From contig JABJQG010000001.1 of the NCBI GenBank assembly GCA_018663505.1, positions 1-32,073 on the forward strand: a stretch of DNA of 32,073 bases. Reading direction: 5' to 3'. Of the stretch, positions 24,590 to 25,423 are shown in pieces. Numbering within the stretch: position 1 is the stretch's first letter; every line of letters begins with the position of its first letter. A program made the translations under genes and the position numbers. The notes under the pieces are model-generated. The model was given only the letters and a program-made list of their open reading frames with translations, did not search any database and was not told the origin of the DNA. This DNA comes from Pseudobdellovibrionaceae bacterium (GTDB taxonomy: Bacteria; Bdellovibrionota; Bdellovibrionia; Bdellovibrionales; UBA1609).

Positions 24590-24808
24590 ATGAGCAGCCT
24601 AAAAGTACAACCCGATGGCGAGTTAACTTATAGCTTTTCCGAATCAGCACCCACAACACCTAAAAAATTTCGCAAAGGTACTGATGTTACTGAACTTTAT
24701 AAGTTTGTACATAAATATGACCTACAAGCAGAGGCTATTTTTATCCTAAATAAAATTAAAGCCGAAATTAAAGCTAAAACAGCCAGCACTAAGAAAAAGA
24801 AAAAATAG
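24590..24808 (+). CDS. Small lysine-rich protein, unknown function
   Basis: A 72-aa cytoplasmic protein: a polar N-terminus (VQPDGELTYSFSESAPTTPK), a predicted helical centre (VTELYKFVHKYDLQAEAIFI) and a basic tail of lysines (TASTKKKKK). AAAGGAG lies upstream of the ATG and a good promoter-like pair precedes it, so it is probably real. The lysine tail could bind nucleic acid, but no domain is recognised. It is followed by the long inverted repeat at 24824-24992, which may end its transcript. Confidence 0.75.
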   Translation: MSSLKVQPDGELTYSFSESAPTTPKKFRKGTDVTELYKFVHKYDLQAEAIFILNKIKAEIKAKTASTKKKKK

Positions 24809-24823
24809 ACTAAAACACTTTTA

Positions 24824-24992
24824 CATTTCTAGCTATCCCACTGAATAATTCTGTATTTTTGCATAATTTGAAGTTTGGGCAAAAAGCGAGTTCGGAGCGG
24901 AGCCGAAGGCGAGCACCGCTTGTTTGAGCATTTTTGTGCAAACTTCAAATTATGCAAAAATACAGAATTATTCAGTGGGATAGCTAGAAATG
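24824..24992. repeat. Perfect 54-bp inverted repeat with 61-nt centre
   Basis: Bases 24824-24877 are the exact reverse complement of 24939-24992. After a two-base mismatch the pairing resumes for six more bases (CAAAAA 24880-24885 with TTTTTG 24931-24936). The centre (about 24886-24930) is GC-rich, unlike the AT-rich arms, and contains GAGC-rich segments and a small TTCGG/CCGAA stem. The frame at 24875-25066 that spans it is a by-product. It could be a giant terminator, a miniature mobile element or a dispersed palindromic repeat. Copy number in the genome cannot be judged here. Confidence 0.95.
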
Positions 24993-25162: not shown

Positions 25163-25423
25163 ATGAAGCCATTCAATCAAAAAGGTCAGGGTCTTATTGA
25201 GTATATCATAATAGTGGCTCTTGTGGCTGTAGCAGCCATTGGATCCATTAAAATTTTGCAAAAAACCATCAATGTGACTTTTGCAAACAGCATTAACAGT
25301 TTGCAGGGGAAGGATTCAAAAAAAGTGGATCATGAGCAGTTAGAAAAAAAACATTATAGAAAAAAGGACCTTAGTGATTTTTTTAAAGGTGCATCTAATG
25401 GTAAAAACAATGTTAGCCAATAA
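25163..25423 (+). CDS. flp: Flp-type (type IVb) pilin
   Basis: An 86-aa prepilin. KGQGLIEYIIIVALVAVAAIG shows the Flp signature: prepilin-peptidase cleavage after Gly, then Glu at +5 and Tyr at +6, followed by the hydrophobic assembly helix. The C-terminus is unusually long and charged (KKVDHEQLEKKHYRKKDLSD). AGGAGA precedes the ATG. First gene of an overlapping group of pilin-type genes. Flp pili are built by Tad systems and serve adhesion. The symbol is used as a family label. Confidence 0.88.
   Translation: MKPFNQKGQGLIEYIIIVALVAVAAIGSIKILQKTINVTFANSINSLQGKDSKKVDHEQLEKKHYRKKDLSDFFKGASNGKNNVSQ

Follow-up and report, generated by a model that had tools for sequence, protein, structure and literature searches.

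How can a long palindrome stay perfectly matched in a bacterial genome, and how did it come to be there? The question is raised by positions 24824-24992 of the window, the window being the whole 32,073-nucleotide stretch of a Pseudobdellovibrionaceae bacterium contig that was analysed here. A first-pass annotation, made from the sequence alone, described this locus as a perfect 54-bp inverted repeat with a GC-rich, asymmetric centre. This description held. The arms (24824-24877 and 24939-24992, 54 nt each) pair with 0 mismatches, the inverted-repeat tool extends them to 62 nt at 97% (24824-24885/24931-24992), and the loop is asymmetric and rich in GC. Folded as RNA, the locus gives -113.1 kcal/mol, compared with -44.6 +/- 4.0 for dinucleotide shuffles (z = -16.95). 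The 32-kb window contains no other long inverted repeat (arm >=25, loop <=220). The 61-nt centre divides into the conserved core (24887-24929) and a short stem next to it, whose wobble and mismatched pairs are fixed across a family of related hairpins. The features are as follows.

24824..24877, + strand: left arm, outer stem; 54 nt, private to this copy, perfect complement of 24939-24992, absent elsewhere in the genome
24878..24886, + strand: core-proximal stem, left side; conserved zone with fixed wobble and mismatch pairs
24887..24929, + strand: conserved apical core CGAGTTC...TGTTTGAGC, with about 40 copies in the same genome
24888-24893, + strand: core internal-loop half GAGTTC
24893-24918, + strand: inner hairpin between the internal-loop halves; inner pairs covary GC/AU, GC/UA, CG/GC
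24921-24928, + strand: core internal-loop half TGTTTGAG
24930..24938, + strand: core-proximal stem, right side
24939..24992, + strand: right arm, outer stem; 54 nt, the reverse complement of the left arm
24590..24808, + strand: neighbouring ORF outside the element, 72 aa, no Pfam match; its stop lies 15 nt ahead of the left arm
25163..25423, + strand: neighbouring Flp-type pilin-like ORF outside the element (E 2e-4, under the curated cut-off)

A conserved tip on many hairpins

The hairpin is a member of a dispersed, mobile-looking family found across the Bdellovibrionales, in which the tip is conserved and each copy has a stem of its own. When its own genome was queried with the 169 nt, 41 matches were found, centred on the core. 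A covariance model of the core gave 44, and the family amounts to about 40 copies overall. Once oriented, they are long hairpins with a common tip and with arms that differ in each. There are thus many short non-coding copies at unrelated sites, as a MITE would be expected to have. A simple intrinsic terminator, meaning a single-copy hairpin with a T-run and no conserved loop family, is not supported, given the 40 or so copies with a conserved core. An assembly artefact is disfavoured by 38 copies having differing flanks on both sides. Of 39 long hairpins in 148 kb, only 2 lack the core. A coreless perfect palindrome with 29-nt arms and a 1-nt loop was noted at L010:511-569 of this genome. Some very long arms in genome G018 reach contig ends and were left out of the reasoning.

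Within the bacterial family, the core model matches 19 of 47 genomes (14 of 26 genera), and within the order 45 of 141 (31 of 66 genera), although the weaker order-level matches were not inspected and may include generic hairpins. The part that is invariant across the order is 5'-CGAGTTC ... TGTYTGAG-3', flanking a variable inner hairpin, and on reading the sequences both halves were present in 20 of 20 distant sites fetched. The inner pairs of the core covary across genera (GC/AU, GC/UA, CG/GC), and covariation over the whole structure is 0.656, against 0.196 when shuffled. No exact match to the core pattern was found in the viral collection. Nothing in Rfam reached the gathering threshold, the weak matches being to generic long hairpins, and the open-access literature searched, with partial coverage, gave no account of this hairpin family.

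Two zones of the stem

The arms of 38 copies were searched as a concatenated set. Each was found only at its own two positions, except for sharing among the nested copies of L038/L039, and therefore the arms were not copied from elsewhere in the assembled genome; donor copies were looked for in this search and none was found. Conservation in this genome is about 2 bits per position up to 14 nt from the core and near background beyond that. It ends abruptly, exactly where pairing turns near-perfect. In the 14 nt that flank the core on either side, 18% of pairs are mismatched, with 56 G.T against 2 A.C. In the outer stem the figure is only 1.4% (8 G.T : 4 A.C : 9 other), with no clear wobble bias. 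Compensatory selection should leave wobble intermediates whereas copying would not; the outer-stem mismatches look like the product of copying and not of selected base pairs.

The arms are not wholly without resemblance. Those of subfamily A have a mutual similarity of 9.49, compared with 7.43 +/- 0.12 when shuffled. In subfamily C, and by eye in G007, arms are nearly dissimilar between copies despite near-identical cores, which is poorly explained by descent alone. Some isolated positions may also be mentioned. At 28 nt outside the core, the left arm has a T in all copies of subfamily C (11/11), and T is also enriched there in subfamily A, most neighbouring positions being near random. In 7 of 49 copies from this genome and its relatives, GGC (GCC on the other strand) is found right at the outer edge of the right arm, clearly more often than at neighbouring positions; it is a possible end or target motif. 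Start codons and ribosome-binding-like motifs occur in subfamily A arms, but in the two copies checked (L013, L033) they are not real gene starts.

Signs of insertion and descent in this and related genomes

One copy in this genome lies in frame and free of stops inside the hydrogenase maturation protein HypF (L029:792-3341). Homologues have a loop of about 8 residues at this point, compared with some 55 extra residues here (about 165 nt; the palindrome is 163). It remains possible that the native loop was longer before insertion. A further comparison comes from the spacer between two genes which, from reading of the sequence, we take to be lspA and lgt. In genome G048 it measures 201 nt, of which a palindrome takes up 141 nt, and in G047 of the same genus only 63 nt; in G019 and G046 it is 120 and 115 nt respectively, longer than in G047. 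The L267 site of G047 is empty in G048, and neither empty site holds a hairpin of that length. The HypF, lspA-lgt and L267 comparisons indicate that the inserted unit is the whole palindrome with both arms, although the G019 and G046 spacers leave room for doubt. Elements are also found nested within the apical loops of other elements (L038/L039 in this genome; L295 in G124).

The outer ends of the copies are not conserved in this genome. The versions in G044 and G045 have terminal inverted repeats of about 22 nt and TA-like ends, the G044 version being about 224 nt long with the ends TATACCGATCCGGTTTGA. The first-pass annotation had suggested a check for target-site duplications. None is evident or could be established in this genome, and in this regard TA-like ends were recorded in G044 only. 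No transposase has been tied to the family, Y1_Tnp being the one candidate type tested.

Stems are visibly related between copies in G043, G044, G045 and G013. G043, G044 and G045 have stem sequence in common, and in G044 the terminal repeats as well. At L253 and L258 of G048 the sequence beyond the stems is conserved, but within them it has changed symmetrically. Similarly, L340 of G047 and L262 of G048 have the same flanking genes, related cores and different stems, with 38/40 and 47/48 positions paired. These two are likely to be orthologous, but independent insertion at the same place is not excluded. In the same G048 loci there are also partial tandem arrays (L258:1545-1865 and L253:1579-1782, with periods of 117 and ~100 nt), which consist of core, right arm and a GGCGGGTT... 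tail and lack the left arm.

These results bear on several earlier claims. The proposal of a dispersed palindromic family or miniature mobile element held, on the evidence of the 40 or so copies, the insertions relative to relatives, the in-frame HypF copy and the nesting. A single copy conserved in place, which would have refuted it, is not what is seen; the further copies that it was suggested to look for do exist, with the qualification that the centre recurs and the arms are private to each copy. A recent origin, named beside gene conversion and strong selection as an implication of the perfect arms, does not follow from them, because diverged and apparently orthologous copies are each self-complementary. 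An active mechanism keeping the long palindrome had also been suggested, for which copying between the arms is proposed here by inference. The tip is constant and every stem is different yet matches itself, so that something must keep rewriting both arms together. The balance of evidence tips towards stems that are inherited with the element, change rapidly and are re-matched by copying, the copying mechanism itself being inferred.

The behaviour is not confined to one family. A second, with a quite different core of ~90 nt, is present in G048 (32 matches, for example L262:1281-1465 and L264:2214-2400) and in G047 (12 matches), and its stems are likewise near-perfect yet vary from copy to copy. 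In G048 a global alignment of its 45-nt stems gives 0.792, barely higher than 0.778 for shuffled sequences, and the case for stem homology there therefore rests on a visible common pattern. Among its mismatches one wobble orientation is favoured (34:8 overall, 11:2 at 10-39 nt). This is a hint of pairing selection in the second family, a possibility that cannot be dismissed. A 64-nt near-perfect inverted repeat at L017:581-763 of the present genome, with another core that starts GCC and ends GGC, apparently belongs to a further family.

A proposed self-copying mobile hairpin and its rivals

It is shown that there is a family with a conserved core, private near-perfect stems, insertion of the whole palindrome, and sister stems that are related but diverged. 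On the basis of these observations, we hypothesise that it is a small non-autonomous mobile hairpin, similar to MITEs and Rickettsia palindromic elements (RPEs), with a freely drifting stem whose arms are kept identical by self-templated copying. We put the probability of this reading at about 0.58; the enzyme, the copying mechanism and the feature recognised are all inferred. The inserting unit would be the entire palindrome, arm - core - arm, of ~130-220 nt. Selection would act on the core, the internal-loop motif 5'-CGAGTTC...TGTYTGAG-3' at the top of the stem, presumably through recognition of the folded strand by the machinery that moves the element. The outer stem would be unconstrained in sequence, needing merely to be a stem, and would mutate freely; one arm would then serve as the template for the other and so restore their identity, either by strand-switching in replication or by fold-back synthesis during movement. 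A bolder version, which remains possible, is that a folded single strand moves and is extended from its 3' end with its own 5' arm as template. Each move would then rewrite the stem, wobble pairs would be lost except in the primer zone of ~14 bp, and new copies would acquire private perfect stems.

Parts of this scheme have precedents. RPEs are palindromic repeats of ~100-150 bp with long predicted stem-loops, present in many copies both between genes and in frame in protein genes (PMC2229807, PMC10969869). They are the closest described relatives by behaviour, having in common the in-frame insertion in a protein gene (one case here, HypF), although no sequence comparison with RPEs was made. 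However, members of RPE families encode a conserved peptide (PMC10969869), whereas here the loop core is conserved and the stems are private. Bacterial MITEs are similarly short, non-coding, dispersed and palindromic, and the G044/G045 terminal inverted repeats are like theirs, but this genome has no conserved outer ends, established duplication or identified parent transposase. Template switching is known to make the arms of imperfect inverted repeats identical (PMC8604942; discussed in PMC6649704 for nematomorph coding palindromes). This is the same working as the stem upkeep proposed here, where its action is inferred; the known cases are isolated or coding palindromes and not a dispersed family with one core.

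The rival that deserves most attention is a structured RNA, whose core would be an internal loop that binds a protein or ligand, for example in a terminator-like or 3'-end hairpin, with selection for pairing causing the covariation of the stems. This remains possible. It is supported by the strong covariation, also within the core, by the + strand G.U preference beside the core, by the wobble bias of the second family, and by the orientation of neighbouring genes, 28 of 36 on the right pointing towards the element by our own count. Against it, the outer-stem mismatches of the first family have no clear wobble bias, stems are almost wholly different between copies with near-identical cores, no Rfam family is matched at gathering score, and the HypF and nested insertions resemble mobility. 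A less probable alternative, indeed an unlikely one, is that only a short core is inserted and then, by folding back its 3' end, copies 30-130 nt of the adjoining target DNA in inverted orientation, so that one arm is native and the other copied. The sharp stop of conservation at 14 nt and the private arms would fit, as would the few neighbouring coding ends that reach 6-17 nt into the left arm, with hardly any into the right. However, the HypF, lspA-lgt and L267 sites fit insertion of both arms (the longer G019/G046 spacers, of 115-120 nt, notwithstanding), several genomes have copies with related stems, and L253 and L258 of G048 carry conserved DNA outside diverged stems.

Another idea is that each gene already had a long terminator hairpin and that the core inserted into its loop. 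This would account for the position just past stop codons and for nesting in apical loops. It is nevertheless very improbable, as coreless long hairpins are almost absent and the empty sites have none of the required length. Finally, a REP-like element moved by a RAYT or Y1 (HUH) transposase is all but excluded. REP/RAYT systems use folded single-stranded DNA, and this genome has about nine Y1_Tnp genes. REPs resemble the present family in being scattered extragenic palindromes, and in that recognition is probably of the folded single-stranded form. Nevertheless, Y1_Tnp is absent in the copy-rich G043, G045, G054, G055, G013, G001 and G015, and no core copies lie near the Y1_Tnp genes of this genome. 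The present family also differs in having no RAYT association and in the location of its conserved core within a long unconserved stem.

Whichever reading prevails, a family in which conservation is limited to the loop of long hairpins, each copy having its private perfect stem, offers a natural experiment on the upkeep of perfect palindromes, and it could be missed by repeat finders that look for conserved arms. Several genera have 20-70 copies per genome, so that a comparison of close strains could separate self-templated copying from compensation at the RNA level.
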